The notes under the pieces: model-generated
What the model was told of the DNA's origin: nothing
The model's input: only the letters and a program-made list of their open reading frames with translations
The model's database searches: none
NCBI RefSeq assembly: GCF_001647275.1
Contig: NZ_LRMM01000035.1
Location: 1-49,528, forward strand
Direction of reading: 5' to 3'
Length of the DNA: 49,528 bases
From: Rufibacter ruber
GTDB taxonomy: Bacteria > Bacteroidota > Bacteroidia > Cytophagales > Hymenobacteraceae
Program-made: the position numbers and the translations under genes
Shown here: positions 1-49,528 of the stretch, piece after piece
Layout of the letters: each line of letters begins with the position of its first letter
Position numbering within the stretch: the stretch's first letter is position 1

Positions 1-36
1 TTTGGCCTGTTTTTCAGAAAACAGCAAAAACAGAAG
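1..36. repeat. Dispersed palindrome, copy at window edge
   Basis: The left arm reads TTTGGCCTGTTTTT and the right arm AAAACAGCAAAAACAG, with a short TCAG-like loop. The 5' end is cut by the window boundary. It belongs to the GGCCTGTTTT/AAAACAGGCC family described in the findings. Confidence 0.75.
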
Positions 37-222
37 AGGGGGTTTATTTTAGATAAAGCCGTGCTTTTGCTGCTAATGACCATAGGAGCGATACAAACAA
101 AATCACGCCCGCAGGAATTATCAGCATTATGAAAGCTTGTTATGGCAAAATTCAGGAAGCTGTTTACTGTTAATTTCTAATTCCCTGGCGGATGTGTGCA
201 TCTGGTTCCTTTTGTGGAACTT

Positions 223-262
223 GCGTTTCCGGGCTGTTTTTAGAAAAGCAGACCGGAAACGT
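223..262. repeat. Dispersed palindrome
   Basis: Arms GCGTTTCCGGGCTGTTTTT and AAAAGCAGACCGGAAACGT surround a tiny loop. One arm carries an extra base (GCAGACC against GCAGCCC), so it is an imperfect copy. Confidence 0.85.
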
Positions 263-366
263 TAGCGCAAGCGAACGCTTGCGTTGCGACAGGAATAAGT
301 CCAAAAGAGAAGGTTTATTCAAATAATCTCATGGAGAAAAAATTACTGACTATGTGATGCGAGTTT

Positions 367-406
367 CCGTTTCCGGGCTGTTTTTCAGAAAACAGCCCGG
401 AAACGG
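367..406. repeat. Dispersed palindrome, perfect 18-bp stem
   Basis: This is the best-preserved copy: CCGTTTCCGGGCTGTTTT, a four-base loop TCAG, then the exact reverse complement. It sits 30 bp past the trmB stop. There is no T-run beyond either arm, so it is not a classical intrinsic terminator, but it could still act on the transcript's 3' end. Confidence 0.92.
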
Positions 407-435
407 AACAGTAAGGCTAGCTCCAAAACAACCCG

Positions 436-1092
436 TTACCCCACAGAGTACTGCAGGTATTTAATAGGAACACCCTTCTCCAGATACGTTTTCTCAAAGG
501 TGGTGTAGATGCCCATGGTGTGCTCCTGCAGATCAGACTGGTAGAGGTCTTTGGTAAAGATCAACCCTTGTGCCTTACTTTCTTCCAGAACCTCCAGGGT
601 ATAGTCGAACAACAGTTCGCTGTCGGTTTTGAGGTGGATTTTTCCGCCTGGCTTAAGAAGGCGGTGGTACATCTCCAGGAAGCGGGGCGAGGTGAGGCGG
701 CGTTTGATGTCGCGCTTACGGGGCTGGGGGTCAGGAAACGTAATCCAGATCTCAGACACCTCCTGCTCACCAAAATGCTGGTCAATATTTTCAATGAAAG
801 TGCGCAGGAAACCCACATTGGTCAGTTCCCCCTCCAGGGCCAGGGTACTGCCCTTCCAGATGCGGTTGCCTTTGATGTCAATGCCCAGAAAGTTCTTCTC
901 CGGGAATTTTGAGGCCATGCCCACGGTGTATTCGCCTTTGCCGCAACCTACCTCCAGCACCAGCGGCTGGTCCTGAGGGAAGAAATCCTGGTTCCAGCGG
1001 CCCCTCAGCTGTTCGTAATTTTCTTTGCCTGGTTCTACTATGTTCGCCCGGGTGGCGTTGACTGCAAATTTCTCTTGTTTACCTCTGCCCAT
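436..1092 (-). CDS. trmB: tRNA (guanine-N7-)-methyltransferase
   Basis: Methylates G46 in the variable loop of tRNAs using S-adenosylmethionine. The 218-residue protein has the SAM-binding motif LEVGCGKGEY at about residues 46-55. It also has the family signature FPDPQPRKRDIKRR at about 119-132 (FPDPWPKKRHxKRR in relatives). Length is normal for TrmB. The ATG is four bases from the folC stop, so the gene is the last member of the run that starts with the TPR gene at 10455. The gene after it is outside the window, and the next sequence downstream is palindromic repeats. Confidence 0.95.
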   Translation of the reverse strand: MGRGKQEKFAVNATRANIVEPGKENYEQLRGRWNQDFFPQDQPLVLEVGCGKGEYTVGMASKFPEKNFLGIDIKGNRIWKGSTLALEGELTNVGFLRTFIENIDQHFGEQEVSEIWITFPDPQPRKRDIKRRLTSPRFLEMYHRLLKPGGKIHLKTDSELLFDYTLEVLEESKAQGLIFTKDLYQSDLQEHTMGIYTTFEKTYLEKGVPIKYLQYSVG

Positions 1093-1095
1093 GTA

Positions 1096-2388
1096 TTATA
1101 GTTCGGGAATTTCCGCGACCACAAAGGTACTACCGCCAATGAAAATTACCTCATCTTCCTGGGCAAAGGCTTTGGCGGCCAGAATAGCGTCTTCCACGGT
1201 GGGGTACGCGTGGCCTTTGAGACCGGCAAACTGCGCCTCCTCCCACAACTCCTGCACCGGCAGGGCCCTGGGGATCTGGGCCTGGCAGAAGTAGTAGCGG
1301 TAAGCCACCGGCAACAGCCTGAGCACACTCCTAATGTCCTTGTCATTGACGGCCCCAAACACAAAATGCACCTGCCGCCGCTTCAAGGCCAACAACTGTT
1401 TCACCACCTGGGTAAGACCGTCTATGTTATGGCCGGTGTCACAGATGGTCAGCGGCTTCTCAGCCAGCACCTGCCAACGACCCTGTAACCCTGTAAGCGC
1501 TTGAATGTTGCGCAATCCCTCCCTGATCTGCTCATCTGAAATGGCATAGCCCTGGTGTCTTAATTCAACCACCGTGGCCAGCACCCCTGCCAGGTTTTGT
1601 TGCTGATAATTGCCTAAGAGAGACACCTCTAATCCCTCCAGCCACAACTGTTCCTTTAGGTAGACATCAAACAGGGAGTACATACCTGCGGTTCCCTTTG
1701 GCACTACTCCATAGATTTGATCAGCAAACAAAAGCGGGCTTTGCGTTTCCTGGCTCTTTTTCGCAAAAACCGCTGAAACTGACGGTTGGGTGGAGCTCAC
1801 AACGGCCGGTACACCGGGTTTGATGATGCCCGCTTTCTCGCCGGCTATCTCCTCTAACGTATTCCCCAGCAGTGCCTGGTGGTCCAGGCCAATGTTGGTG
1901 ATCAGGGACACCAGCGGTGTGATGATGTTGGTAGAGTCTAGCCTTCCGCCCAGTCCTACTTCAATAATGGCAATGTCCACTTCCTCGGCTGCGAAATGAT
2001 CAAAGGCCAATGCCACCGTCATCTCAAAGAAAGAAGGTTTTACCTGCTCAAACAGCTGCTGGTGCCGCTCTGTGAAGCGCGTCACGTTCTCTTTGCTGAT
2101 CATCTCCCCGTTCACCCGTACGCGTTCCGTAAACTCTTTCAGGTGGGGCGAGGTGTAGAGGCCGGTTTTATAACCAGCCGCCTGTAAAATGGCGGCCAGC
2201 ATGGAAGAGGAGCTGCCTTTGCCGTTGGTGCCCGCCACGTGCACCGTCTTAAAGTGCTGCTGAGGATTATCCAGTGCTTTCGTAAGGGCAATGATGTTGT
2301 CCAGGCTCTTCTTAAAAGCAGCGTTGCCGATGCGGTGAAACATCGGCAACTGCTGGTAGAGGTATTCTAAGGCTTGTTCGTAGGTCAC
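1096..2388 (-). CDS. folC: Bifunctional dihydrofolate/folylpolyglutamate synthase
   Basis: Adds glutamate to dihydropteroate and folates in the cytoplasm using ATP. The 430-residue protein shows the Mur-ligase-type P-loop VAGTNGKGSSS (about 51-61), the following YTSPHL segment and the IIEVGLGGRLDSTN motif. Length is typical. It starts 11 bases after the TonB-like gene stops and ends four bases before trmB begins, so it is probably co-transcribed with both. Around residue 205 the coding sequence resembles the dispersed palindrome (1742-1785). As I recall the family, other FolC proteins have a segment of equal length there, so an insertion is not demonstrated. Confidence 0.95.
   Translation of the reverse strand: MTYEQALEYLYQQLPMFHRIGNAAFKKSLDNIIALTKALDNPQQHFKTVHVAGTNGKGSSSSMLAAILQAAGYKTGLYTSPHLKEFTERVRVNGEMISKENVTRFTERHQQLFEQVKPSFFEMTVALAFDHFAAEEVDIAIIEVGLGGRLDSTNIITPLVSLITNIGLDHQALLGNTLEEIAGEKAGIIKPGVPAVVSSTQPSVSAVFAKKSQETQSPLLFADQIYGVVPKGTAGMYSLFDVYLKEQLWLEGLEVSLLGNYQQQNLAGVLATVVELRHQGYAISDEQIREGLRNIQALTGLQGRWQVLAEKPLTICDTGHNIDGLTQVVKQLLALKRRQVHFVFGAVNDKDIRSVLRLLPVAYRYYFCQAQIPRALPVQELWEEAQFAGLKGHAYPTVEDAILAAKAFAQEDEVIFIGGSTFVVAEIPEL
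1742..1785. repeat. Palindrome-like segment inside folC (doubtful member)
   Basis: GCGTTTCCTGGCTCTTTTTC followed by GCAAAAACCGCTGAAACTG resembles the dispersed family in order and spacing, but the arms pair poorly. On the folC strand it encodes VFAKKSQETQ. The surrounding FolC length looks normal, so this may be chance resemblance. Confidence 0.35.
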
Positions 2389-2399
2389 GAGGCCAGCGG

Positions 2400-3251
2400 T
2401 TAGTTGGATCTGATGATAAAGGTGATGGTTCCGGTGGCGCCTGAGCTGGGGTTGTCGCCTTTGATTCTGCTGAAGGTGGTTTTCTGAATCTGGCCTTTGT
2501 ACCAGTTCACAACTTGTGGGCTCACATTGCTTTCCACCACATCAATATTGACCAACTCCCCTTCGGCATTAATCTTAATGCTGAAAACCACCCGTCCGCT
2601 TTCGTTCTCATACGGGTCAGTCTTGGGCGTGATATCATAGCGCCAGCCGGGCATGTTCAGGGAGCCGCCCCCGCTACCGCCGTTGCCGGTTTTCTTTCCC
2701 GGGTAAAGGCCTTCAGGTTTGCCTTTGTCGCCAACCACGCCTTCATCGCCGTTGTTGTTGCCGGTGGGCTTGTTGCTGGTTCCGGCGGTTCCGTTACCGG
2801 CACCGGCCTTCGATTTGCCGGGGAATAAAGCGCGGGAATCAACTTTCTTCACTTCCTCTTTGGGAGGCTCGGGCGTTGGTTTCTCCACCTCCTTCACACT
2901 TACCGGCGACTCTACCGGGGAAGTCACTACTTTGGCAGGTTCTGCGGCAATGGTGGGTTGGGGTTTGGCTTCTGCCACCGGGGTTGGCACGGTTTCAGGG
3001 GCTTCTGCCGCGGGTTTGCTGTCTTCTGGGTTGGGAGAGTCATTAGGCGTGGCTTTGCTGTTGACATCACCGCTACCGGCATCTGTGGTTCCGTAGGAGA
3101 TTTCAATTCCTCCTTCGGGCAACACCGGCGGGTCATTGGCTTTCCAGGCCAGCATATAAAACAGGAACAGCAGCAAAAGCACGTGCACGGCCACGCTCAC
3201 CGCCATCGCGATTCGCTGGTCCTTTTTCTCTTGTGCGGTTACGGCTAACAT
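2400..3251 (-). CDS. TonB/TolA-like energy transducer
   Basis: 283 residues. A short cytoplasmic start is followed by one membrane helix (about 16-36), a long Pro/Glu/Lys-rich and then Gly/Asn-rich periplasmic spacer (about 50-200), and a C-terminal globular part with SIKINAEGELVNIDVVES, as in TonB C-terminal domains. It should couple the ExbB/ExbD proton channel, encoded immediately upstream, to an outer-membrane partner. The barrel protein of the same run is the obvious candidate, which is an inference. It starts eight bases past the ExbD stop. The C-terminus is divergent, so TonB and TolA cannot be separated by eye. Confidence 0.85.
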   Translation of the reverse strand: MLAVTAQEKKDQRIAMAVSVAVHVLLLLFLFYMLAWKANDPPVLPEGGIEISYGTTDAGSGDVNSKATPNDSPNPEDSKPAAEAPETVPTPVAEAKPQPTIAAEPAKVVTSPVESPVSVKEVEKPTPEPPKEEVKKVDSRALFPGKSKAGAGNGTAGTSNKPTGNNNGDEGVVGDKGKPEGLYPGKKTGNGGSGGGSLNMPGWRYDITPKTDPYENESGRVVFSIKINAEGELVNIDVVESNVSPQVVNWYKGQIQKTTFSRIKGDNPSSGATGTITFIIRSN

Positions 3252-3259
3252 AGTTTTGT

Positions 3260-3661
3260 TTATTCAGCTTGTTCAGCGGCAATACTGATTTTGGCATTCA
3301 GCTTGGCTGCCATGCCGGCCACCTTTACAAAATATTCTACGGGAACAGATTTGTCTACGTTCAGAACAACAACCCCCTGCCCCTGTTCAGTTCCAGACAG
3401 AGCCTGCTCCAGGGCGGCCGGCAAGGCTTCTAACGACGTGGGCTGGTCGTTCAGGAAGTACTGCAGGTCTTTGGTGATGGTCACATTGGTTTTCTCCATC
3501 ACAATGCTGGTAGAGGCGCTGGAAGGCAGACTCACCGGCATGCCCGTAGGCGTCACAAAGCTGGAGGTCAACATGAAGAAGATCAACAACAGAAAGATAA
3601 TGTCTGTCATTGATGACATGTTGAAGTCTGGGTTGACCTTATTTTTGGAGCGTAAATTCAT
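3260..3661 (-). CDS. ExbD/TolR family biopolymer transport protein
   Basis: 133 residues. One N-terminal membrane helix (about 21-38) is preceded by the conserved acidic residue (MSSMTD, D20) that lines the proton path in ExbD/TolR, followed by a small periplasmic domain. The start ATG overlaps the ExbB-type gene's TGA by one base, indicating translational coupling. Partner of the ExbB-like protein at 3661-4365. ExbD and TolR are not distinguishable from sequence alone. Confidence 0.93.
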   Translation of the reverse strand: MNLRSKNKVNPDFNMSSMTDIIFLLLIFFMLTSSFVTPTGMPVSLPSSASTSIVMEKTNVTITKDLQYFLNDQPTSLEALPAALEQALSGTEQGQGVVVLNVDKSVPVEYFVKVAGMAAKLNAKISIAAEQAE

Positions 3662-4365
3662 CAGGCTTGCGGTTCTTGTAACAGATCAATGAACTCAATA
3701 GAGCTGTACTCCATGTCATGCACAATGCTGTCAATCTTTGACACCAGAAAGTTGTAGCCCACATAGGCAGGCAGACCAATGATCAAACCAGTGGCCGTGG
3801 TCACCATGGCCTCATAGATACCGCCAGACAACAGCTGCGGGCTCACAGACCCTTCTGCCTGGGCAATGGCGATAAAGGCGGAAATCATACCCGTTACCGT
3901 ACCCAGGAAGCCCAGCATGGGGGCGGCACCGGCCACGGTAGCCAAACCAGACAGGTTCTTCTCCAGGCGGGCAATCTCAATCTTTCCTACGTTCTCAATA
4001 GAGGCTTCAATGCTTTTCAGCGGCTGGCCAATGCGCGAAATCCCTTTCTCCAGCATGCGGGAAATGGGGGAATTGGTCTGGGCACATAGCATTCGGGCGC
4101 CCTGCACGTCTCCAGCCAGCACCAGTCCTTTCAGTCTGCCTACAAAATCATTGGGGTTTTTAGCCGCTTTCTGAATAGTAAGGTACCGCTCCACAAAAAT
4201 GTAAATGGCTACCAGCGAAAGAATCACCAACGGAATCATTGCCCACCCGCCGTTCAGGGCGAGATCCAGCAACGAAACTGATTCTTGGGTGGCTTCTGCG
4301 CCAACAGCGGCGGCAGTGGTGTCAACGGCAGTAGGAGCAGTAATCTGAAGTAGGAACGCGTTCAT
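3661..4365 (-). CDS. MotA/TolQ/ExbB proton channel family protein
   Basis: 234 residues. Three membrane segments are visible (about 41-60, 140-165 and 187-208), with the family hallmarks LATVAGAAPMLGFLGTVTGM before helix 2 and VTTATGLIIGLPAYVGYN in helix 3. An Ala/Thr-rich N-terminal stretch precedes helix 1, as in many Bacteroidota members. It forms the inner-membrane proton channel with the ExbD-like protein. The gene starts one base after the HU-CCDC81/SPOR gene stops. Confidence 0.94.
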   Translation of the reverse strand: MNAFLLQITAPTAVDTTAAAVGAEATQESVSLLDLALNGGWAMIPLVILSLVAIYIFVERYLTIQKAAKNPNDFVGRLKGLVLAGDVQGARMLCAQTNSPISRMLEKGISRIGQPLKSIEASIENVGKIEIARLEKNLSGLATVAGAAPMLGFLGTVTGMISAFIAIAQAEGSVSPQLLSGGIYEAMVTTATGLIIGLPAYVGYNFLVSKIDSIVHDMEYSSIEFIDLLQEPQA

Positions 4366-4366
4366 G

Positions 4367-5584
4367 TTAATAGTTTAATACCCAAAGTTCTTGGCTTATT
4401 TTACTGCGCAACGCTGGCAGGGCAGCTTGCGCCTCTTCGGCGGTGCTATAGTCAGCAACTGAGACGCGCTGACGCTTTCTGTCATGGGCGGTCACCACAA
4501 TCTTGGCCTCGTAGCCTTTTTTCTGCAGACGCTTCTGGTTCATTTCAGCGTATCCGTCCTGCGCAAAAACGCCCATGATGACGTAGAAACGTCCCGTCCG
4601 GGTTTTAATTGTAGAACCGGTAGCGGCATTTTCTTTCACCTCGGCGGGCGCCGAAACTTTTTTCTCCACCTTGGCCACCGGGGCAACCACGGCCGGCGCG
4701 GCCTTTTCTGCTTTCACTGGGGCGGCAGCTACTTCAACCTTTGCTTGAGGTGCAGCTGCCCAGTCATCTTTTGGGGTTTCTGTTTCCGGGCTACTTTTCG
4801 GAAAATCAGCCAAAAGTACATCTTCAGCGGCCAGCTCTTCCTCTAGGGTGGGTTCTGCCAGCTGTGAGGTATATTGTTCCGTTAACTGCTGCGCATCAAA
4901 GGCGTCTAAATCAGATATTTGTGCGCTAGAATCAACCGCAGGAACAGCCGGGGCGCTCGCAGAGAGCAGCGTAAACGGGTTTAATGAGCTTAACGCCACA
5001 TCTGCCTGTAACGTGTACAGGTAAACGGCAGACAGAGACAACCCGCCTATCACCAGGCTCGCCCCAACGCGGTACAGGCGGCGCAACCGCGAAACCGGTT
5101 TCTTGCCCTCGGCTGTGCCGCCAGCGGTTTGGTCTGCGTATTTACCCCGCAGCACCAGCGTCTCTTTCCCAAGAATGGGCCTAGACACCAGTTCTGGCAG
5201 CCCAAAGCTGTGCTCCAGGAAATTCTCCTCCTCCAGGCTTTCAAACACCAGTTTGCGCTCAGCGTTGTACCTGAACACCCCCACGTCTTGCAGCTCAAAG
5301 CGGTGCTGGGTCTGGAGCTGTTGTTTCAGGTCACGCACAAACTCAGATACCGCCTGCTGGGCCTGCGCCAGAGGCCACTGCTGCCGGTGGGCAAGCGTGG
5401 TAATCAGGAGACCGTCATTGACCTGGAGCTGCTCATTGAACGCAATACGCTTTGACGGCGGCGTGAAGGTGTGTTTTACCGGATGGATTTTGGCGTGCGC
5501 ATAATGCGTGATCAATCCCCCAAAGTCTGGAATGATCACGCAGTCATACGCGTAAAGCAAAGATTTAATGTGCCCTTGAACCAT
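4367..5584 (-). CDS. HU-CCDC81 and SPOR domain protein
   Basis: 405 residues. The N-terminus (MVQGHIKSLLYAYDCVIIPD, then GGLITHY) matches the Bacteroidota HU-CCDC81 tandem domains (about 1-132), which resemble HU DNA-binding folds but may serve another role. A membrane helix follows at about 173-192, then an Ala/Glu/Lys/Pro-rich linker, then a C-terminal SPOR domain (about 325-405, GRFYVIMGVFAQDGYAEMN), which binds septal peptidoglycan lacking stem peptides. This places the N-terminus in the cytoplasm and SPOR in the periplasm. The linker contains a copy of the dispersed palindrome (4778-4819) read in frame. The gene is followed immediately by exbB/exbD/tonB-like genes, and a 156-bp gap separates it from the barrel gene upstream. 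Confidence 0.88.
   Translation of the reverse strand: MVQGHIKSLLYAYDCVIIPDFGGLITHYAHAKIHPVKHTFTPPSKRIAFNEQLQVNDGLLITTLAHRQQWPLAQAQQAVSEFVRDLKQQLQTQHRFELQDVGVFRYNAERKLVFESLEEENFLEHSFGLPELVSRPILGKETLVLRGKYADQTAGGTAEGKKPVSRLRRLYRVGASLVIGGLSLSAVYLYTLQADVALSSLNPFTLLSASAPAVPAVDSSAQISDLDAFDAQQLTEQYTSQLAEPTLEEELAAEDVLLADFPKSSPETETPKDDWAAAPQAKVEVAAAPVKAEKAAPAVVAPVAKVEKKVSAPAEVKENAATGSTIKTRTGRFYVIMGVFAQDGYAEMNQKRLQKKGYEAKIVVTAHDRKRQRVSVADYSTAEEAQAALPALRSKISQELWVLNY
4778..4819. repeat. Dispersed palindrome inside a coding linker
   Basis: GTTTCTGTTTCCGGGCTAC, TTTTCGGAAAA, then TCAGCCAAAAGTAC closely follows the family pattern. It lies wholly inside the disordered linker of the SPOR protein, where it is translated as ADFPKSSPETET. 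The reading frame is kept. Confidence 0.72.
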
Positions 5585-5673
5585 ATGTTTTTCAATGACT
5601 GTCAGCAGATAAAAGTTTATTTAAACCCTCTCTGCCCTCAGCCGTACTTGTTTGTCTCTTCGGCTTACTTTTC

Positions 5674-5715
5674 CTGTTTTAGGCTGTTTTGCAAAAACAG
5701 GCCTAAAACAGCGGC
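5674..5715. repeat. Dispersed palindrome
   Basis: Arms CTGTTTTAGGCTGTTTT and AAAACAGGCCTAAAACAG with a short GCA loop. It lies in the 156-bp gap between the barrel gene and the HU-CCDC81/SPOR gene, where it could separate the two halves of the transcript. Confidence 0.88.
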
Positions 5716-5740
5716 TTATGCCGTAAAGAAAAGTCTCTAC

Positions 5741-10531: not shown

Positions 10532-10628
10532 GAAAAAATGTGGGTAAGCGGCAGCTAAAATTCATTTCTATCCGTGCTAGCACAACGTTGCAACCCGCTG
10601 CTTTAGCATCTGCCGCTTCTACTATTTG

Positions 10629-10674
10629 TTTCTGTTTTCGGGCTGTTTTCCTGAAAACAGCCTGAAAACAGAAA
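10629..10674. repeat. Dispersed palindrome
   Basis: Arms TTTCTGTTTTCGGGCTGTTTT and AAAACAGCCTGAAAACAGAAA around a CCTG loop. It lies between the TPR operon promoter and the end of the DUF4844-like gene. Confidence 0.92.
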
Positions 10675-10735
10675 CGGCAAAGATGGTTTCTCTAGGGTTT
10701 TCTGCTGATCATCAGGCCCAAGTGCTGCCCCTGTG

Positions 10736-12295: not shown

Positions 12296-12342
12296 CCATT
12301 GATTAGAAAGGAAACCAGCAGATGGCGGCAGAAATTAAAGAA

Positions 12343-12387
12343 ATGCGTTTTGGGTCTGTTCTTCAGAAAACAGGCCATAAACAGAAA
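12343..12387. repeat. Dispersed palindrome
   Basis: Arms TGCGTTTTGGGTCTGTTCTT and AAAACAGGCCATAAACAGAA. Degenerate but recognisable copy in the divergent gap between holA and the MutS-like gene. Confidence 0.8.
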
Positions 12388-12473
12388 ATCACCGCCCAGC
12401 ATACTAAGTCAGAGTCACCTACAGTTATTTATTTACTTCTACTTGTATTCCCCCTCATCCCTCTGGTTTGGCT

Positions 12474-13763: not shown

Positions 13764-13861
13764 TTGACTGGATTACCCATCTTCACATTAATCCGCACCG
13801 CGCTTTCCCAGTAAGCGGCACAGAATCTTCTTAAATTCCTAAAGTCCTGCCATGTGCAACT

Positions 13862-13904
13862 TTGCGTTTTGGGCCTCTTTTCTGGAAAACAGCCCCAAAA
13901 CGCA
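13862..13904. repeat. Dispersed palindrome
   Basis: Arms TGCGTTTTGGGCCTCTTTT and AAAACAGCCCCAAAACGCA with a CTGG loop. Lies between the MutS-like gene and the tyrS promoter. Confidence 0.9.
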
Positions 13905-13958
13905 CATGGGTTCTCTTGAAACTAAGAACGAACAACTACCAACTAAAAACTAATTTGA

Positions 13959-15311: not shown

Positions 15312-15362
15312 AATCCCCCGTGGTTTCTAAAGCCAATGGCTGAGAAACCACGGGGGATTTCT
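15312..15362 (+). terminator. Intrinsic terminator after tyrS
   Basis: A perfect 17-bp stem (AATCCCCCGTGGTTTCT at 15312-15328, partner at 15343-15359) with a 14-base loop, followed by a short T-rich stretch that runs into the adjoining dispersed palindrome. Confidence 0.85.
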
Positions 15363-15404
15363 GTTTTTGGGCTGTTTTCTGAAAAACAGCCCAAAAACAG
15401 AAAA
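15358..15404. repeat. Dispersed palindrome abutting a terminator
   Basis: Arms TTTCTGTTTTTGGGCTGTTTT and AAAACAGCCCAAAAACAGAAA, about 20 bp of near-perfect stem. It directly abuts the tyrS terminator, so its T-rich left arm provides the terminator's T-tail. Confidence 0.92.
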
Positions 15405-15440
15405 GGAGTAAACTTGGAGCAATGCTATTTCAGGGGCAAT

Positions 15441-15798: not shown

Positions 15799-17037
15799 CT
15801 AGACTTCTACCGTAGTTTTAGTATAAAGTCCTTTATCCAATTTGGCGGCCACGGCCTCAAAGGCGGCAATGGTCTCAGCCACATCTTCCAGGGTATGAGA
15901 TGCAGTTGGGATCAAACGCAACATAATCACATCTTTGGGTACCACCGGATACACCACAATTGAACAGAAGATGCTGTAGTTCTCACGCAGGTCCAGCGTA
16001 AGGGAGGTGGCATCTGGAATCTGGCCGTTGAGCAACACCGGAGTCACAGGAGACTCCGTGGTGCCAATGTTGAAGCCTTTCTCCCGCAGCCCAGACTGCA
16101 GGGCGCGCACCACCTTCCAGAGGTTTTCTTTCAACTCTGGCTGGTTACGCAGCAGTTCCAGACGCTTGAGGGCACCCATCACCAGCGGCATAGGCAGGGA
16201 TTTGGCAAAGATCTGCGAGCGCATGTTGTAGCGCAGGTAGTCAATCACGTACTGCTCACCGGCCACAAATGCCCCAATGCTGGCCATTGACTTGGCAAAC
16301 GTAGAGAAATACACGTCAATCCCGTCCTGGATCCCGAGGTGCTCGCCGGTACCGGCACCCGTTTCGCCCATAGTCCCGAAACCGTGGGCGTCATCTACCA
16401 ACAGCCTGAACTGGAATTTCTCTTTCAGGGCCACCACTTCTTTCAGCTTGCCCAGGTTACCGCTCATGCCAAACACGCCCTCTGTGATCACCAGAATTCC
16501 ACCGCCGGTTTCCTGGGTCATTTTAGTGGCGCGCTGCAGTTGCTTCTCCAGGCTTTCCATGTTGTTGTGCGTGTACACAAACCGCTTCCCCTGGTGCAAG
16601 CGCACCCCGTCAATGATGCAGGCGTGAGACTCAGCGTCATACACAATCACATCATGGCGGCTTACGAGTGAATCAATGATAGACACTACCCCTTGGTACC
16701 CAAAGTTCAGCAACAGGGCAGAAGGCTTCTGCACAAACGCTGCCAGCTCATTCTCCAACTGCTCATGGTAGTTGGTGTTCCCAGACATGATGCGTGCCCC
16801 CATGGGCGTAGCCATGCCCCATTGGGCGGCTGCTTCAGCGTCAACTCTTCTAACTTCGGGGTGGTTGGCCAGGCCCAGGTAGTTGTTCAAACTCCACGTT
16901 AAAACTTCTTTTCCCCTGAAAACCATACGCGGCGCAATCTCCCCCTCCAGTTTTGGGAAGGTGAAGTAACCATGGGCATAATGAGAATGGCTGCCAAGCG
17001 GTCCGCGGTTGGCCAAAAACTTTTCAAATAAATCCAC
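15799..17037 (-). CDS. Probable serine palmitoyltransferase (alpha-oxoamine synthase)
   Basis: PLP enzyme of 412 residues, expected to condense serine with palmitoyl-CoA to 3-ketosphinganine, the first step of the sphingolipids typical of many Bacteroidota. Visible features are SLNNYLGLANHPEV, NTNYHEQLE, the cofactor-stacking FGYQG segment, VDDAHGFGTMGETGAGTGEH (about 214-233) and the Schiff-base lysine K249 in STFAKSMASIGAF. The family also includes 2-amino-3-ketobutyrate-CoA ligase and 8-amino-7-oxononanoate synthase. The GAGTGEHLG signature and absence of biotin genes favour the palmitoyltransferase. Divergent from accC. Confidence 0.78.
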   Translation of the reverse strand: MDLFEKFLANRGPLGSHSHYAHGYFTFPKLEGEIAPRMVFRGKEVLTWSLNNYLGLANHPEVRRVDAEAAAQWGMATPMGARIMSGNTNYHEQLENELAAFVQKPSALLLNFGYQGVVSIIDSLVSRHDVIVYDAESHACIIDGVRLHQGKRFVYTHNNMESLEKQLQRATKMTQETGGGILVITEGVFGMSGNLGKLKEVVALKEKFQFRLLVDDAHGFGTMGETGAGTGEHLGIQDGIDVYFSTFAKSMASIGAFVAGEQYVIDYLRYNMRSQIFAKSLPMPLVMGALKRLELLRNQPELKENLWKVVRALQSGLREKGFNIGTTESPVTPVLLNGQIPDATSLTLDLRENYSIFCSIVVYPVVPKDVIMLRLIPTASHTLEDVAETIAAFEAVAAKLDKGLYTKTTVEV

Positions 17038-18754: not shown

Positions 18755-18760
18755 ACACCT

Positions 18761-18805
18761 TTTCTGTTTTTAGCATCATTTTCTGAAAACAGCCCAAAAA
18801 CAGAT
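18761..18805. repeat. Dispersed palindrome
   Basis: Arms TTCTGTTTTTAGCATCATTTT and GAAAACAGCCCAAAAACAGA. The left arm has diverged (AGCATCA instead of GGGCTG). Lies just past the accC stop. Confidence 0.8.
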
Positions 18806-18812
18806 GAGCGTT

Positions 18813-18852
18813 AGCCTTCACAGGTTTTGAAAACCTGTGAGGGCTTTTTATT
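18813..18852 (+). terminator. Intrinsic terminator after accC
   Basis: A 16-bp stem (AGCCTTCACAGGTTTT, partner 18830-18845) with a single-base loop between arms, followed by TTTTT. One T-G pair in the stem. Confidence 0.85.
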
Positions 18853-19283
18853 AGAAGCAGGACTATCTGGAGCACCTGTATTTTCAGAACAGGGTAACTG
18901 ATACAAGTATCCTCTGCCGCGGCTCACCAGACTAGCGCCAAGGAGTGGTTGGAGTCTCCATACTCCCTAATTTCTTCAGGTGGTTCACGGGGTGTCTGGC
19001 CACCCGCCGCACAGTTGGCCATGAGGCATTCGTCTCACGGCTGCATCTCAAAATCATCAACAATCTGCACAGGATCCCGCCGTGTCTTTAGACCTGCGGG
19101 TGTCTGAACCAGTAACTGTAGCCACTGCCAATTGAATCGCGGCTCCCTCACCCTGCCGTCCCTACAGGTGACGGGTATGCCGCAGTTGCGTTTTTGGCTT
19201 GTTTTGGCCAAAACAGGCCAAAAACAGAACTCCCCCGCACCAGGTAAGATGCGAAGGAGATCTTGGGATGAAGGCAGTGAGCA
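18853..19283. other. Intergenic region without recognised genes
   Basis: About 430 bp between accC and the bshB1 end. Apart from a dispersed palindrome at 19187-19228, it contains GC-rich self-complementary patches such as GGAGTGGTTGGAGTCTCC near 18941. No coding sequence or RNA gene was recognised. Confidence 0.5.
19187..19228. repeat. Dispersed palindrome
   Basis: Arms GCGTTTTTGGCTTGTTTTGG and CCAAAACAGGCCAAAAACAG, nearly perfect, with no unpaired loop bases beyond GGCC at the centre. Confidence 0.9.
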
Positions 19284-22124: not shown

Positions 22125-22340
22125 ATATCAAGTAAGATTTTGGGAGTGCAATATTACAAATAAATTCATTGACCTGGGCGGATGAGGGCTGACCGGTGCA
22201 GGTGCTTTCCCGCAGGCAACCACTGCCACGGCGTTTGCCACAGGATTTGAGTCTGTTTCTGTTTGAAGTAAAAAGATTCTGGCGCTTTGATAAATATGTC
22301 TGTACAACCAGAAAAACTGGCCAGCTGCTAGTTTTATATT

Positions 22341-25771: not shown

Positions 25772-25777
25772 TAGATG

Positions 25778-28318: not shown

Positions 28319-28539
28319 TCTCCCCAAATGCCAAAAAGTTCTGGTGCGCAGCTGCTTTGCTTTTCACCCCGCTGGTCTTAAATTCAAAATTATTCCCGTC
28401 CAATCAATCCTTTATTGGGTTTGCTGCTCATGGCCTGTCCCCTCATACTTTATTTCTGCAGGTACTTTAAAATCCATACCCGAAATACCTACCTCACGTG
28501 CCTGCACGAAAACTGGATCAATGCCGCCTGAAGATCCAT

Positions 28540-28578
28540 TGCGCTTTGGGCCTCTTTTCCGAAAAACACCTTTAAACT
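28540..28578. repeat. Dispersed palindrome, degenerate
   Basis: GCGCTTTGGGCCTCTTTTCC and GAAAAACACCTTTAAAC. It ends six bases before the start codon of the thioredoxin-like gene, so it would lie in or form the 5' leader and may cover the ribosome-binding region. Confidence 0.65.
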
Positions 28579-28584
28579 ACGAAT

Positions 28585-31041: not shown

Positions 31042-31146
31042 GTAGAATGTATGAGGGCAACGTTATGTATCATGGAAGCTGTTCGGCGTTTTCTATTTTG
31101 CTAGTTCCGGGTGCACGTGCGCCGTTTATGCATCAAGAGTTCAGAT

Positions 31147-31188
31147 TTCCGTTTTTGCCTGTTTTCTGAAAAACAGGCCAAAAACGCA
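31147..31188. repeat. Dispersed palindrome
   Basis: Arms TTTCCGTTTTTGCCTGTTTT and AAAACAGGCCAAAAACG, with a CTGA loop. Confidence 0.9.
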
Positions 31189-31251
31189 AGCCAGCCAGAA
31201 TCACATTAAGTAGTAGGACAAATTAAGACATACCTTTTGTCATCTTGGAAA

Positions 31252-31328
31252 GATCTTAGGGAACAGTGGGCGAACTAGTAAAGCTTTATTCAGACGTTAT
31301 TACCGTTCGCCCACTGTTCCCTAAGATC
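31252..31328. repeat. Perfect 24-bp inverted repeat (hairpin)
   Basis: Left arm 31252-31275 begins GATCTTAGGGAACAGTGGGC; the right arm 31305-31328 is its exact reverse complement, with a 29-base loop. It is flanked by CTTTT on the plus strand. It is not part of the GGCCTGTTTT family. Confidence 0.9.
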
Positions 31329-31416
31329 CTTTTAGGATAACAACGAGAAGAGAAGGTGTACTTACTTCTGTCCATTTACTTTAATATGAAAACTCTAAAC
31401 AGCTTCCTCTTGAAAT

Positions 31417-31477: not shown

Positions 31478-31513
31478 CTTTTCCAGAGAACAAGATGTAT
31501 CAACCAAGCACCG

Positions 31514-31561
31514 ATTTCCGTTTAGCGGCTCTTTTTCTGAAAACAGGCCAAAAACGGAAAG
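31514..31561. repeat. Dispersed palindrome
   Basis: Arms TTTCCGTTTAGCGGCTCTTTTT and GAAAACAGGCCAAAAACGGAAA. The left arm has diverged by a few bases. It lies 31 bp past the KdpD sensor-half stop. Confidence 0.85.
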
Positions 31562-31592
31562 GTAGCCTTTTTCCGCTTGCCGTAGATTCCCT

Positions 31593-34388: not shown

Positions 34389-34406
34389 GGAAAGAATGAA
34401 GCCATC

Positions 34407-34455
34407 CTTTCCGTTTCTGGCCTGTTTTCTGAAAAATAAGCCAAAAACAGAAAGC
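34407..34455. repeat. Dispersed palindrome
   Basis: Arms CTTTCCGTTTCTGGCCTGTTTT and GAAAAATAAGCCAAAAACAGAAAG. It sits ten bases past the kdpC stop. Confidence 0.88.
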
Positions 34456-34464
34456 GGCCTTCAA

Positions 34465-35028
34465 TTACTTCAAAGCGTCCAGGGCCAGGTTGAGTTGCAG
34501 GACGTTCACTTTCTCAGGGCCTAAGATGCCTAAGAGCGGCGCTTCTACGTGTTGCTGCACCAGCGCCCGCACTTTCTGCTCGGGAAGGTTTCTGGCTTGG
34601 GCAACGCGGGCAACTTGCAAGTAAGCGGCTTCGGGGGAAAGGTGCGGGTCTAGGCCGGAGCCGGAGGCGGTCACCAGTTCGGCGGGAATCTGGGCGCGGG
34701 TCACGCCGGGGTTGTGGGCCAGAAACGTGTCGATGCGCGCTTGCACGGTGGTCAGGTAATCGGGGTTAGAGGGGCCTTTGTTGGAGCCTCCCGAGCCGGC
34801 CGCGTTGTAGTCCACCGCGGAGGGTCTTCCCTGGAAATACCCGTCCTGGGTGAACACCTGCCCTACGTTGGCGAAGCCAATTACTTGGCCGTTGCGCGAA
34901 ACGGTTTCCCCACCTCCGCCGCCCGACGAAAGTTTGCCGATGCCCGCCACCAGCACGGGGTACACGCCCGCCAGCAACACCAGCAGCACCAAGGTCAATT
35001 TAATAGAGGCGATTAAATACGTTTTCAT
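34465..35028 (-). CDS. kdpC: Potassium-transporting ATPase subunit KdpC
   Basis: 187 residues. One membrane helix (about 9-31), then the periplasmic-side domain with FTQDGYFQGRPSAVDYNAAG, SGSGLDPHLSPEAAYLQVAR and LGILGPEKVNVLQLNLALD, all KdpC hallmarks. It stabilises the KdpFABC complex. It starts 23 bp past the kdpB stop, and a dispersed palindrome fills that gap. Confidence 0.96.
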   Translation of the reverse strand: MKTYLIASIKLTLVLLVLLAGVYPVLVAGIGKLSSGGGGGETVSRNGQVIGFANVGQVFTQDGYFQGRPSAVDYNAAGSGGSNKGPSNPDYLTTVQARIDTFLAHNPGVTRAQIPAELVTASGSGLDPHLSPEAAYLQVARVAQARNLPEQKVRALVQQHVEAPLLGILGPEKVNVLQLNLALDALK

Positions 35029-35033
35029 GTGAT

Positions 35034-35074
35034 TACGTTTTTGAGCTGTTTTTAGAAAAAGAGGCCTAAAACGG
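35034..35074. repeat. Dispersed palindrome overlapping the 3' end of kdpB
   Basis: Arms ACGTTTTTGAGCTGTTTTT and AAAAAGAGGCCTAAAACGGCG. The stop codon and the last seven or so codons of kdpB (AVLGLFF) lie inside it. Confidence 0.82.
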
Positions 35075-37109
35075 CGTCTATGAGTTTAATACCAATGAAC
35101 GGGGCCACCACGCCGCCCACACCGTAGAGCAGCAGGTTCCGGCGAAGCAGCGCACTTGCCCCGATGGGTTTGTAGGCCACGCCGCGCAAGGCCAGCGGAA
35201 TGAGCAGCGGAATGATGATGGCGTTGAAAATGACCGCACTCAGAATGGCGCTCTCGGGGCTGTTGAGGCCCATGATGTTCAGGCCTTGCAGGGCGGGAAT
35301 GGCCACAATGAAGAGCGCGGGCACAATGGCGAAGTACTTGGCCACGTCATTGGCGATGGAGAACGTGGTGAGCGTGCCGCGGGTGATGAGCAACTGTTTG
35401 CCAATTTCCACAATCTCAATGAGCTTGGTGGGGTCGTTGTCCAGGTCCACCATGTTGCCCGCCTCTTTGGCCGCCTGCGTGCCCGAGTTCATGGCCACCC
35501 CCACATCGGCCTGGGCCAGGGCCGGCGCGTCATTGGTGCCGTCGCCCATCATGGCCACCAGTTTGCCCGCGGCCTGCTCTTTCTTGATGTAGTTGAGCTT
35601 GTCTTCGGGCGTGGCCTCGGCAATGAAATCATCTACGCCCGCTTTCTCGGCAATGAATTTGGCGGTGAGCGGGTTGTCGCCGGTCACCATCACGGTTTTC
35701 ACGCCCATCTTCCGAAGGCGCTCAAAACGTTCCTGAATGCCGGGTTTGATGATGTCCTCCAGCTGAATCACGCCCTGCACTTTCTCGTTCTCGGTGACCA
35801 CCAGCGGCGTGCCCCCGTTGGCGGCAATCTCGTTCACTTTCTCGGCCACGGCCTTGGGGTAGGTGTTGCCCGCGTTCTCGGTGAGGCGGCGCATGGAGTC
35901 AGAAGCACCTTTCCTGATGCGTAAACCGTTGGGCAAATCAAGGCCGCTGGACCGGGTTTCGGCGGAGAACTTGATGAACTGCACCTGGCTTAAATCGGGC
36001 ATGGGCACTTCCACGCGCTGCTGCTGGGCCAACTCCAGAATGGATTTCCCCTCGGGCGTATCATCAGAAATAGAACTGAGCACGGCTTTGGACACGAACT
36101 CCCGCTCCTCCACACCCGGCGCGGGCCAGAACCTGGTGGCTTTCCGGTTCCCGATGGTGATGGTGCCCGTTTTGTCCAGCAGCAGCGTGTCAATGTCGCC
36201 GGCAGTTTCCACGGCCTTGCCCGATTTGGTAATCACGTTCGCCCGCAGCGCCCGGTCCATGCCCGCAATCCCGATGGCCGAGAGCAAGCCCCCGATGGTG
36301 GTGGGAATGAGGCATACAAACAGGGCTATGAGCGAGGCGATGGTAATGGGCGTGTTGGCGTACTCCGCGAAGGGCTGCAGGGTCACGCACACAATGATGA
36401 ACACCAGCGTAAAGCCCGCCAGCAGAATGGTAAGCGCAATCTCATTGGGGGTTTTCTGGCGGCTCGCGCCTTCCACCAGCGCAATCATCTTGTCCAGGAA
36501 CGACTCACCGGGGGCGGTAGTCACGCGCACCACAATGCGGTCTGAGAGCACCTTGGTCCCACCCGTCACCGACGATTTATCGCCGCCCGCCTCGCGTATC
36601 ACCGGTGCAGATTCGCCCGTGATGGCCGACTCGTCAATAGAAGCCAAACCTTCAATGATTTCGCCGTCCGTGGGAATAATATCGCCGGGTTCGGCCAGGA
36701 AAATATCGCCTTTCTGGAGCGCGGCAGAGCTGACGGTTTCAATGACTTCAGACTGGTTTCCGCCTCTTTTGGTGAGTTTTTTGGCGGGCGTGTCCTGGCG
36801 CGTTTTCCGCAGCGATTCGGCCTGGGCCTTGCCCCGCGCCTCGGCAATGGCCTCGGCGAAGTTGGCGAACAGAAGCGTGAGCAGCAGAATGAGAAACACC
36901 AGAAAGTTGTAGCCCAAGGTGCCCTGGTTCTGGCTGCCCATGGCCACGCCCACCGTCACCAGCAGCATGATGACGGTGCCAATCTCCACGGTGAACATCA
37001 CCGGGTTCTTGATGAGGTAGCGGGGATTCAGTTTTATCACCGACTGCTTGAGCGCCTCGCGTACCAGCGGACCTTCCAGCAGCCCCATTTGTCTTTTTTG
37101 CACAGACAT
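35052..37109 (-). CDS. kdpB: Potassium-transporting ATPase ATP-binding subunit KdpB
   Basis: 685-residue P-type ATPase. Actuator motif TGES ([11 protein letters not shown]), phosphorylation site DKTGTIT, nucleotide-domain KGAS (IRKGASDSM) and hinge [20 protein letters not shown], with membrane helices at the N-terminus, centre and C-terminus. All catalytic residues are present. The C-terminus ([15 protein letters not shown]) is encoded partly by a dispersed palindrome and is slightly shorter than the usual LID...LGLV ending. Confidence 0.97.
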
Positions 37110-37149
37110 GTTTTCTAGGATTGAATAAGTGAAGAGGATGCCCGCCCGG

Positions 37150-37198
37150 GAGTTTGCGTTTTTGGCCTGTTTTGGGAAAAAGAGCCGCTAAACGCAAA
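37150..37198. repeat. Dispersed palindrome
   Basis: Arms AGTTTGCGTTTTTGGCCTGTTTT and AAAAAGAGCCGCTAAACGCAAAC. It lies in the 112-bp gap between kdpA and kdpB, inside the operon. Confidence 0.87.
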
Positions 37199-37221
37199 CC
37201 TCCGCCGGGGCACCGAAGGGT

Positions 37222-39600: not shown

Positions 39601-39650
39601 AAACTAGCTGTTGCTTAGGTGTTCCCTGTAAGTCCTTGATTTACAATCCT

Positions 39651-39688
39651 ATTTTTAGCCTGATGTCCAAAAAGGAGCCGCAAAACGG
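39651..39688. repeat. Dispersed palindrome, degenerate
   Basis: ATTTTTAGCCTGATGTCC and AAAAAGGAGCCGCAAAACGG. Eroded copy directly next to the 17-bp palindrome at 39688. Confidence 0.6.
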
Positions 39689-39724
39689 CAAGGGCACCCT
39701 ACCAAAATGGTAGGGTGCCCTTGC
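39688..39724. promoter_or_regulatory. Perfect 17-bp palindrome upstream of the kdp promoter
   Basis: GCAAGGGCACCCTACCA, a three-base loop AAA and the exact reverse complement. Its centre lies about 130 bp upstream of the predicted kdp transcription start, a usual distance for the activator sites of sigma-54 regulators. It could alternatively be a terminator for the regulator gene, but no T-run follows on the minus strand. Confidence 0.5.
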
Positions 39725-40071: not shown

Positions 40072-40167
40072 TTCGGGATTTGTAATCCCCGATGCAGTTC
40101 AAACAGTACCGAATCGGGGATTACAAATCCCCGACTCATTTGCTCCCGGATTGCAAATCCGGATGAG
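40072..40167. repeat. Cluster of ATTACAAAT and ATTGCAAAT palindromes
   Basis: TCGGGATTTGTAATCCCCGA (from about 40072) and ATCGGGGATTACAAATCCCC (from about 40112) are inverted copies of one palindrome. A third unit, CTCCCGGATTGCAAATCCGG, follows near 40142. The same two motifs occur together in the element at 34089-34388. Confidence 0.75.
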
Positions 40168-40364
40168 CTTGCTTTTTGGTAAACTTACCAGACATGTCTT
40201 CAAAGGGAACAAACTCCGTGAATAAAGCTAGACATAGCTTCCTTCTGCCAACTTTTCTTTTTCTGCTACTGTTGCCGGAAACTCCCCTCCTGGGAGGGGT
40301 AGGGGTGGGTAAAGCGGCATTAGACTTGTACCGCAAGCGTGGATGAAATCAAAGACGAATCATT

Positions 40365-40410
40365 TTTCTGTTTTTGCCCTGAATTCAGAAAAACAGCCGC
40401 TAAACGGAAA
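40365..40410. repeat. Dispersed palindrome
   Basis: Arms TTTTTCTGTTTTTGCCCTG and AAAACAGCCGCTAAACGGAAA, with AATTCAG in the loop. About 40 bp past the regulator gene stop. Confidence 0.82.
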
Positions 40411-40448
40411 CTACAACAGATGCTAGCGCCAAATACACCAAGCGAGGT

Positions 40449-48166: not shown

Positions 48167-48259
48167 CTTTTTGCTTCAACGTCTAACTTAGCAAAGAGTA
48201 CGTTCATCTAACGGTGGTGGAAACGAGTGCGCAAGTGCCCTAAGCTATAACCCCTTTTC

Positions 48260-48306
48260 TCTCTGTTTTCGGCCTGATTTTCAAAAAACAGCCCGGAAAC
48301 AGAAAC
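48260..48306. repeat. Dispersed palindrome
   Basis: Arms CTCTGTTTTCGGCCTGATTTT and AAAACAGCCCGGAAACAGAAA, with CA in the loop. About 94 bp past the response-regulator stop. Confidence 0.88.
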
Positions 48307-48377
48307 CTCTTCTCCTCTCCCAATCACAGCTTGTCAAAGCGTACGTTTCCCCCTCTCTGGAAAATTCACACACACCT

Positions 48378-48393
48378 TATGTGATTTTTCACA
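48378..48393. promoter_or_regulatory. TATGTGATTTTTCACA operator-like palindrome, site 2
   Basis: Identical to the site at 45374-45389 over 16 bases, followed 34 bp later by a TACCTTTA -7-like box (48428-48435). Confidence 0.5.
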
Positions 48394-48979
48394 CCCTCAG
48401 TTAATAGCTCGTTGCCACTGCTTGCGGTACCTTTACCACATCAAACAGACACAGCAACTTCTCTCTCTGAAAGTTCCTGTGAAGAATGACCCTCTTTCTT
48501 TTAGCCGAAAGCTGAAAGTGCACCAGCGTTGAAATTATACTAAAACCCATTAAAATATTTCTGCCTGAATGGCCCCAAGAAAATAAACTCCCTTCCCGTC
48601 AATATCTGGCACTAGGTACGCTGCCATATTGAACAAGTCCTGGCATTTGCTCCTGAACAGCAAATCCGGTCCTTACAGGCCCCTGGTTGTATCTACTATC
48701 TCTCAAACAAATCACAGATTCTATCTTCAAATTACATTTAACACTACACCTCCCGTTGGCCAGGAGACTTCTCGCAATAGGCGGGTCTTCTAAACCAACC
48801 CAAGATACCACCAGGGGCCTTTTACCTAAGCTTTATTACTGGAAATGAATATGACACCGACTCTCATATATTGCAAAATCTAACAAGTACTGCCACAGCC
48901 CCAGGCGTCTTCTTTTAACCCGCCCCGGAGAGAGAAAAACCTACAGACAAGAACAGCACTTGGCACGTGTGGGCTTGGC

Positions 48980-49026
48980 AGTTCTGTTTTCGGCTTACTT
49001 TCTTAAAAACAGCCCGAAAACAGAAT
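48980..49026. repeat. Dispersed palindrome
   Basis: Arms GTTCTGTTTTCGGCTTACTTT and AAAACAGCCCGAAAACAGAA, about 48 bp before the start of the next ORF, so it may lie in its leader. Confidence 0.85.
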
Positions 49027-49073
49027 TCCCCTTCAGTGAGAACCCGTGACTTACCGTTTAACAGCTCTACCCC

Positions 49074-49445
49074 ATGAAATTGAACCTGATCAGAATACAC
49101 GAAGGAGATGGTCAACACCCCAACAGTGAATACATTTTTCTGCAGGCGCTCACAGCCGGGAACCTGAAAAATTTGGCATTTCACGTTTCCTCTGCGCACA
49201 GCGCTTACTTTCCTTTCCCTTCGTTACCAGAGGTTGAAGTGGAAAAAGGAGACTATCTGGTGCTGTACACGGGCTCAGGCAAATATGTGCGGGCTTTTAT
49301 CAACACGGGGGAACCCCTGCACAAGGTATTTCTGGGAAAGACGGATTGCCTCTGGACCAACCGCGGTATTTCACCGCAGCAGCTGTGCCTCCTGCCCTTA
49401 GAAGGGGTTATGGCCTCATCCAGATCGCATAATCAATTGGGTTGA
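49074..49445 (+). CDS. Unknown protein, possible lamin-tail-like fold
   Basis: 123 residues, no signal peptide. The order of features (NSEYIFLQALTAGNLKNLAF, AYFPFP, VEKGDYLVLYTGSGKY, LGKTDCLWTNRGI, then QLCLLPL) recalls the single-domain lamin-tail (LTD) fold, with its Y/FP, G-D-x-x-x-L-Y-T-G-S-G and W-x-N-x-G landmarks. This is a visual resemblance only. Standalone gene. Confidence 0.6.
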   Translation: MKLNLIRIHEGDGQHPNSEYIFLQALTAGNLKNLAFHVSSAHSAYFPFPSLPEVEVEKGDYLVLYTGSGKYVRAFINTGEPLHKVFLGKTDCLWTNRGISPQQLCLLPLEGVMASSRSHNQLG

Positions 49446-49490
49446 AAGAAAGGGCAGGAACCAAACAGCGAACCAATTGTTGCTCCTTAC

Positions 49491-49528
49491 ATGCGTTTTC
49501 GGCCTGGTTTTCCCAAAACAGGCCGAAA
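49491..49528. repeat. Dispersed palindrome at window end
   Basis: Arms TGCGTTTTCGGCCTGGTTTT and AAAACAGGCCGAAA, with CCC as loop. The right arm is cut by the window end. Confidence 0.85.

Follow-up and report, generated by a model that had tools for sequence, protein, structure and literature searches.

Short palindromes repeated between genes include the repetitive extragenic palindromes (REPs), or palindromic units (PUs), and the bacterial interspersed mosaic elements (BIMEs). REPs are homogenised by gene conversion, PUs have species-specific forms and BIMEs bind gyrase. Inverted pairs of another repeated motif, the DNA uptake sequence (DUS), are frequent at gene ends. REP-like repeats are usually explained by spread driven by REP-associated transposases (RAYTs) or by the effects of hairpins in the RNA. 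Here we describe an abundant palindromic element of Rufibacter ruber (assembly GCF_001647275.1), found in a stretch of 49,528 nucleotides (contig NZ_LRMM01000035.1, positions 1 to 49,528, "the window" from here on), and compare it with these systems. Our tentative proposal, to which we give somewhat less than an even chance, is that the element is a putative protein-binding site in duplex DNA at the ends of transcription units. We depart from a plain hairpin or REP because the two arms are nearly independent, the occupied places are largely stable between species in the gaps compared and the sequence changes from species to species as a dialect.

In passages of PMC2817692 the palindromy of REPs is kept by complementary changes, and RAYT genes are always flanked by two inverted REPs. 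A GTAG or CGTC tag stands at one end of the REP according to a portion of PMC3733652, and the REPINs (REP doublets forming hairpins) are presented in parts of PMC8049555 as inverted pairs with a short, highly diverse spacer. High numbers of REPs in Bacteroidota are probably not new: a row in the RepRanger table (PMC12306157, in part) gives 1,903–4,118 for three of them (Flavobacterium, Thermoflavifilum), which we take as REP counts. The main text of this broad REP survey has no mention of Rufibacter, Hymenobacter, Pontibacter, Nibribacter or any name in Cytophag-. A search at the level of titles and abstract openings found no published description of the family, and a first, sequence-only reading of the window knew of none for this lineage.

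The repeat family in R. ruber

A 54-column profile, seeded from the copies in the window, was used to score copies. The window has 23 profile matches plus two copies cut by its ends (1-33 and 49486-49528), about 25 where the sequence-only reading had counted some 26 between genes, and two of them (1736 and 4773) lie inside called genes. In our sample of the same genome (loci L001-L020 and the window, 387,938 bases, 7% of the genome) 197 copies were scored, while a Markov-shuffled control had no match scoring at least 8. The dispersed family is real, as had been claimed, and goes well beyond a handful of copies per genome. The exact inner core CTGTTTTNNNRAAAACAG is present 929 times in the 5.5 Mb of the genome and its reversed pattern is absent. 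Two extrapolations gave whole-genome totals of 2,460 and 2,780 copies, i.e., about 2,500–2,800.

The consensus reads TTCtGTTTTnGGcCTGTTTTt-nn-aAAAACAGcCCnAAAACaGAA. Two T-tract boxes at a distance of 11 bp are present in each half, and a central spacer of fixed length lies between the halves. In the profile column table both site ends read YGTTTT...AAAACR, and neither shows a GTAG or CGTC tag. Clustering is rare, only 3 of 186 successive copies being less than 100 bp apart. Rfam at gathering threshold returned a tRNA alone across the window.

Dialects in the genus

A model built from sequence alone detected the family in all 16 genomes of the genus and, with 2 matches, in one of 23 other genomes; as 150 candidates were scored per genome, this whole-genome search gives presence, not counts. 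The scan of genome and relatives that had been suggested with the first reading thus bore out the family. Thousands of copies are probably carried per genome across these related bacteria. By its exact core alone R. ruber looks like an outlier, with 929 copies against 2–262 in the relatives; outside the genus, 7 of 43 genomes had 1–3 copies. Profiles fitted to each genome, which had no matches in shuffled sequence, gave similar densities (0.55 per kb in R. ruber and in G003, 0.43 in G012, 0.42 in G004 and 0.41 in G013), so that the gap in exact cores is one of dialect. The consensus was CGTTTTcGGgCTCATTTC in G012, CGTTTTTGGCCTgTTTTC in G013 and CGTTTAGGGGCTgTTTTT in G004. Four of the five genomes profiled closely carry a sharp dialect of their own, and the motif of G003 is loose (28.6 bits, variable spacer).

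Tested on sites that the training stretches did not contain, the home profile came first in 8 of 10 cases for R. ruber, 10 of 10 for G012, 5 of 6 for G013, 6 of 7 for G004 and 6 of 8 for G003. Sites of G006 were best matched by the G013 profile (6 of 7), and those of the remaining genomes, without a profile of their own in the test, mostly fell to the profiles of G003, R. ruber and G004. G003 and G014, whose consensus is similar, both have the looser motif at a comparable density, a pattern that would fit relaxed constraint in their clade. The R. ruber profile had no matches on six Pontibacter and Hymenobacter loci. A de novo scan of eight loci, four from Pontibacter and four from Hymenobacter, for short perfect dyads gave no dominant arm; its power was low, as three of the four control loci from the genus also failed to reveal the family.

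Conserved occupancy of gaps

The comparison of gaps between anchor genes around tyrS covered as many as 16 genomes. Among the matches listed for tyrS, the nearest with a named source came from Pontibacter (82-84%). A single site is present in gap 7414|11195 in 16/16, and at least one in gap 11195|13989 in 16/16 and in gap 17195|20020 in 13/13. The divergent gap 15799|17195 is empty in 14/14 and gap 20020|21180 in 13/13. Occupancy was not uniform in gaps 13989|15799 (filled in 12 of 14), 21180|22427 (12 of 13) and 22427|23490 (11 of 13). Gap 5741|7414 measures 3-15 bp where measured, too short for a site, and its emptiness is uninformative.

Two closer pairs of species were compared over 140 kb. 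Between G013 and G006, 27 of 61 gaps were occupied in both, 32 in neither and only 2 were discordant; for G003 and G014 the figures over 67 gaps were 35, 27 and 5. Shared positions numbered 27 and 39, respectively, against 8.0 and 10.2 expected from random placement within the same gaps. At the shared sites the high-information columns were identical at 0.88 and 0.92 and the low-information columns at 0.49 and 0.62, a contrast that is partly circular given that sites were picked by motif score, so that the occupancy table carries more weight. The ungapped flanks were 0.39-0.61 identical. An orthologous site resembled its partner only slightly more than it did other sites between G013 and G006 (identity 0.745 vs 0.678) and clearly more between G003 and G014 (0.713 vs 0.497).

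The two halves of the site

Base pairs had been said to co-vary between copies, and in that form this was not borne out. At the mid-stem GGCC/GGGC pair the 195 copies have C-G 53 times, G-C 48, C-C 46 and G-G 41, as for independent arms, with C-C or G-G in 87 of them. Watson-Crick pairing over 131 R. ruber copies was 0.700 vs 0.683+-0.007 for permuted arms (z=2.6), an excess of less than 2 points, and pairing in the inner arm columns (19-25) matched that of permuted arms in each of five genomes (z -2.0 to 0.6). Excess information was 0.0027 across the halves; within a half, for columns more than 3 bp apart, it was 0.0101. Independent pair counts, permuted-level pairing and low linkage together rule out covariation as proof of a hairpin for the inner stem.

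The claim of a conserved loop length was borne out. Strong half-site pairs have a 4-nt centre in 117 of 121 cases in R. ruber, 82 of 83 in G012, 74 of 77 in G013 and 68 of 70 in G004; the spacer is fixed in length and variable in sequence. Half-sites on their own are scarce: at the middle cut, real and second-order shuffled sequence gave 17/10 lone halves in R. ruber, 6/4 in G012, 6/11 in G013 and 5/4 in G004, and 246 of the 262 halves of the R. ruber dyads pass the same cut. Dyad symmetry, fixed spacing and largely independent half-sites, as in an operator, are all found here, with G003 looser and the half scores of G012 correlated. Because the halves change together between species and vary largely separately within one, they appear to bear the mark expected of duplex DNA that is read by a symmetric protein.

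Gene ends and adjoining hairpins

Genes were called by a simple script that covered 0.81 of the window and little of some short contigs, so counts of placement are approximate. Only 4 of 196 copies in the R. ruber sample fall within called genes. The view that copies occupy most gaps longer than 100 bp was checked on gaps of 60-2000 bp, of which 31 of 35 convergent, 80 of 127 tandem and 20 of 43 divergent ones hold a copy. In tandem gaps below 600 bp the centre of the site lies at a median of 65 bp past the upstream stop. The bias to gene 3' ends, strongest in convergent gaps, was thus confirmed, and the supposed link to transcript ends gains from this position and from terminator stems that abut the sites.

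These stems were analysed as those with at least 11 pairs ending at the T-tract of the site itself, real against shuffled flanks. The numbers were 17/2 of 260 sides in the R. ruber sample, 4/1 of 46 in the window, 9/0 of 92 in G013, 10/0 of 98 in G006, 10/4 of 174 in G012, 5/1 of 170 in G004 and 8/1 of 158 in G003. At 9 pairs or more the excess in R. ruber was slight (29 vs 21), hence the use of the 11-pair test. As stems of this length exceed the shuffled flanks in every set, some sites seem to lend their T-tract to an adjoining terminator. The features of the window are as follows (copies in the 54-column frame and without strand, with their profile score).

1-33, copy cut by the left end, core TGTTTTTCAGAAAACAG
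216-269, copy, 43.7
360-413, copy, 60.3
1736-1789, doubtful copy within called gene 1096-2388, 18.4
4773-4826, copy-like dyad within gene 4367-5584 (weak FtsN match), 34.2
5666-5719, copy with a 3-nt centre, 23.7
10625-10678, copy, one element in the same gap in 16/16 genomes of the genus, 64.5
12338-12391, copy in a divergent gap, 46.9
13857-13910, copy upstream of tyrS, 56.9
15312-15359, plus strand, terminator-like hairpin with 17-bp arms (by folding), continuing into the T-rich beginning of the copy that follows
15354-15407, copy 3' of tyrS, top score of the window, 69.4
18757-18810, copy 3' of an accC-like gene, 48.2
18813-18845, plus strand, canonical U-tailed terminator-like hairpin of 15 pairs (terminator scan), directly after the copy
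19181-19234, copy, 54.2
22335-22388, copy, 41.3
22381-22411, minus strand, canonical U-tailed terminator-like hairpin of 14 pairs (terminator scan), abutting the copy
23390-23443, copy right after a terminator-like hairpin, gap filled in 11 of 13 comparable genomes, 37.4
28534-28587, copy, 32.1
31141-31194, copy, 50.6
31511-31564, copy, 54.6
34404-34457, copy, 57.9
35028-35081, copy, 49.5
37149-37202, copy, 49.8
39642-39695, diverged copy, 32.1
40361-40414, copy, 45.2
48256-48309, copy, 59.4
48977-49030, copy, 55.7
49486-49528, copy cut by the right end

The terminator scan of the window gave 32 sites in 20 kb vs 25.4+-5.1 in shuffled sequence, a set not clearly above chance, and only its longest matches are cited. 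The dyad at 4773-4826 has matches at corresponding places in many relatives; shared coding sequence may account for them.

In several relatives, copies located between convergent genes form extended, nearly perfect hairpins that carry A/T tails. On the 3' side of accC, G013 and G006 have outer stems that are unlike each other and yet pair in both. A G+C-rich stem followed by a U-run is found in a minority of copies and is not a general feature of the family.

RAYT genes

The genome of R. ruber has three RAYT genes above the NCBI cut-off of NF047646 and one IS200-type transposase. None of the three lies on the contig of the window, in agreement with the earlier remark that the window holds no RAYT, and RAYT-type matches were obtained in 15 of 16 genomes of the genus. 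A search for RAYTs with the repeat in their flanks had been advised. RAYTs were indeed found, and their flanks are modestly enriched: a copy lies within 400 bp upstream of 17 of 28 RAYT loci against 195 of 572 background genes, and within 400 bp on both sides of 9 of 28 against 93 of 572, several of the 28 probably being orthologues and hence not independent. At several RAYTs a copy stands immediately 5' of the match (in L106-L109 its centre is at -59), and at some there is a further copy on the 3' side. One R. ruber RAYT stands amid a cluster of copies. At L134 (G000:C100, around 16332-16871) one RAYT gene has six copies at distances of up to about 660 bp, and eight in the surrounding 3.5 kb, far above the genome average.

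The one-contig genome of G006 gave no Y1_Tnp match and no RAYT above the cut-off, yet the site family is kept. A genome wholly without Y1-type protein is ruled out by a distant 237-aa Y1-like open reading frame (L218:1652-2365), the sole Y1-like match there; no copy lies nearer to it than about 1.2 kb.

Possible nature of the sites

From the location, the geometry, the near-independence of the halves, the scarcity of lone halves, the occupancy of the gaps compared and the dialects of the genomes profiled, all observed here, we propose the following. Each copy would be a site of about 36-46 bp in duplex DNA, with dyad symmetry, its halves 4 bp apart and the two T-tract boxes of each half one helical turn (11 bp) from each other. 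A symmetric protein, dimeric or tetrameric, would recognise it as double-stranded DNA and so mark the ends of transcription units in the genus. Its likeliest role would be that of a barrier, the bound complex backing up termination and stopping read-through from one gene into its neighbour, above all where the two converge; it may also, or instead, anchor the topological ends of transcription units. Selection on the motif would keep each site in place, and a shift of recognition in a lineage would let the whole set drift to a new dialect, i.e., cis-trans coevolution. Such a site fits mostly stable places with differing spelling somewhat better than a jumping repeat does. The broader statement, that genomes throughout the genus each have some two thousand stable sites or more at gene ends, which change dialect along with a coevolving DNA-binding partner and form a chromosomal mark of transcription-unit ends and not a mobile repeat or RNA element, is possible, although we hold it with more doubt.

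Several observations speak against a protein-read site. Whole-stem pairing slightly exceeded permuted arms in five of five genomes (z 2.0-3.9), as did the outer columns in all five (z 2.4-6.3) and the middle columns in R. ruber (z 2.3) and G013 (z 2.6). In 61 hand-picked copies 82.0% of stem cells paired vs 79.7% after shuffling, a weak signal that none of 500 shuffles reached. Mirror column pairs average 0.0184 in excess information, above other cross-half pairs, owing to the spacer pairs 27/28 and 26/29 and to 15/40. Lone halves at the strict cut were 11 vs 4 shuffled in R. ruber, two of them belonging to one missed dyad, and in G012 the scores of a copy's two halves are correlated (0.62). 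Copy pairs at least 90% identical number 20, against 0-1 in column-shuffled sets, so some copying of whole elements does take place. To these must be added the loose motif of G003, the occupied divergent gaps, the circular part of the motif-column contrast and the U-tailed hairpins discussed below; no binding protein was found, and no unbiased search for one was made.

The strongest competitor, which we judge less likely but worth serious consideration, is a REP- or REPIN-type replicator. In this view RAYTs would have copied a palindromic transposon end of their own around the genome, and copying or gene conversion would keep the motif uniform within each species. The enriched flanks of RAYT loci, the RAYT-type matches in nearly all genomes and the near-identical copies favour it, and G006 is not decisive, because REPINs occur, though fewer, in Escherichia coli genomes without RAYT according to portions of PMC8049555. 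The REP-like character that the sequence-only reading gave to the element stands as far as its dispersal, its place at gene ends and the RAYTs of the genome go. Spread by RAYTs at present is doubtful, because positions are largely conserved, linkage between halves is nearly nil, enrichment at RAYT flanks is modest and G006 has no RAYT above the cut-off. RAYT transposon ends may be the ancestral source of the sites, and ongoing RAYT activity, though possible, is unnecessary to explain the present pattern. Transcription terminators, or hairpins acting as RNA at mRNA 3' ends, would suit the gene-end location, the paired outer columns and the compensated stems beside accC; we consider them less probable again. 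Their inner stem is without covariation, with 28 of the 61 hand-picked copies mismatched at one mid-stem column, separate terminator-like hairpins adjoin some copies, and a terminator needs neither a strict 4-nt loop nor sequence dialects. The absence of a long T-tail, claimed before, applies to the R. ruber copies whose outer stem is extended by at least 12 pairs, none of which has a T or A run outside; stems so extended are rare (3 of 153 copies in R. ruber and 5 of 85 in G004). It does not apply throughout, as a loose scan, which also had 84 matches inside genes in the R. ruber sample, found U-tailed hairpins whose stem encloses the core: 5 in 130 copies in R. ruber, 3 in 46 in G013, 9 in 49 in G006, 12 in 87 in G012, 15 in 85 in G004 and 4 in 79 in G003. 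These minority hairpins led us to raise the terminator slightly and to lower the protein-read site. The two readings have a role at transcript ends in common, since in some relatives copies in convergent gaps stand at the apex of long U-tailed hairpins, in one case with compensating outer stems.

Two further explanations appear much weaker. Old, functionless relics of a past amplification would agree with the degenerate motif of G003; they are very improbable given sharp motifs in four genomes and places and occupancy that agree between species despite poorly conserved flanks. Least probable of all are DNA uptake sequences kept by transformation bias, with dialects like those of DUS and uptake signal sequences (USS). 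Thousands of copies in species dialects do resemble the Neisseriaceae DUS dialects, as parts of PMC3630211 describe them, but single half-sites are near chance outside the dyads and copies rarely fall in genes. With single-motif copies not far above chance, an uptake sequence is not supported.

Stable occupancy, fixed spacing, near-independent halves and dialects, all readable from sequence, thus point to a gene-end mark read by a protein. If this is true, how thousands of binding sites shift specificity together becomes a testable question, and the genus supplies natural variants in its several dialects and in one genome without a typical RAYT.

Other inverted repeats

Between the copies at 31141 and 31511 there is a long inverted repeat (31237-31343) with 39-nt arms, 87% complementary and 29 nt apart, to which a shorter one at 25727-25773 (TTAGGGAA/TTCCCTAA) is partly similar. 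A third, at 40075-40131 (GGGATTTGTAATCCC..., 24-nt arms, 92%), is unlike the main family. Outside the window, L003:10091-10144 and L007:8094-8147 are reverse complements of each other that agree at 45 of 46 positions. Their inner palindrome is a different one (GAGGCGTTTCCGGGCTC...), and they may represent another small family of repeats.

Comparison with known systems

Like REPs or PUs, BIMEs and the REPs associated with RAYTs, as treated in parts of PMC2817692 and PMC3686654, the elements are short intergenic palindromes in high copy, with more than 100 copies per genome, host-specific forms and a RAYT gene in the genome (G006 being the exception). Their number is higher than in part of Table 1 of PMC2817692. 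They differ in the inner arms, which are not kept complementary as in the REPs described there, the signal being limited to the outer columns, the middle columns of two genomes and a weak overall excess. They also lack the GTAG or CGTC tag, flank RAYTs irregularly where two inverted copies would be the rule, seldom form tandem clusters and keep a largely stable occupancy. The elements counted by RepRanger (PMC12306157, in part) are alike in phylum and order of magnitude and come from other genera.

With REPIN-RAYT populations, as portrayed in portions of PMC8049555, the family shares inverted pairs that persist for long within a genome. A REPIN is a duplicated unit whose halves share their history. 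Here, despite the near-identical pairs, the halves are hardly linked, lone halves are near chance, and the spacer is fixed in length but variable in sequence. DUS and USS, to the extent covered in PMC3630211, likewise form genome-wide species dialects, while in our case the full dyad is the unit and is rarely found in genes.

Intrinsic bidirectional terminators resemble the sites in their place at gene ends, in the palindrome and in the minority of copies inside U-tailed hairpins. Unlike them, the sites have a conserved sequence and spacing, little covariation and, in some cases, separate terminator-like hairpins beside them. The sites where BIMEs meet gyrase are palindromes bound by a protein at the ends of transcription units, and the likeness of the Rufibacter sites to them rests on putative binding.

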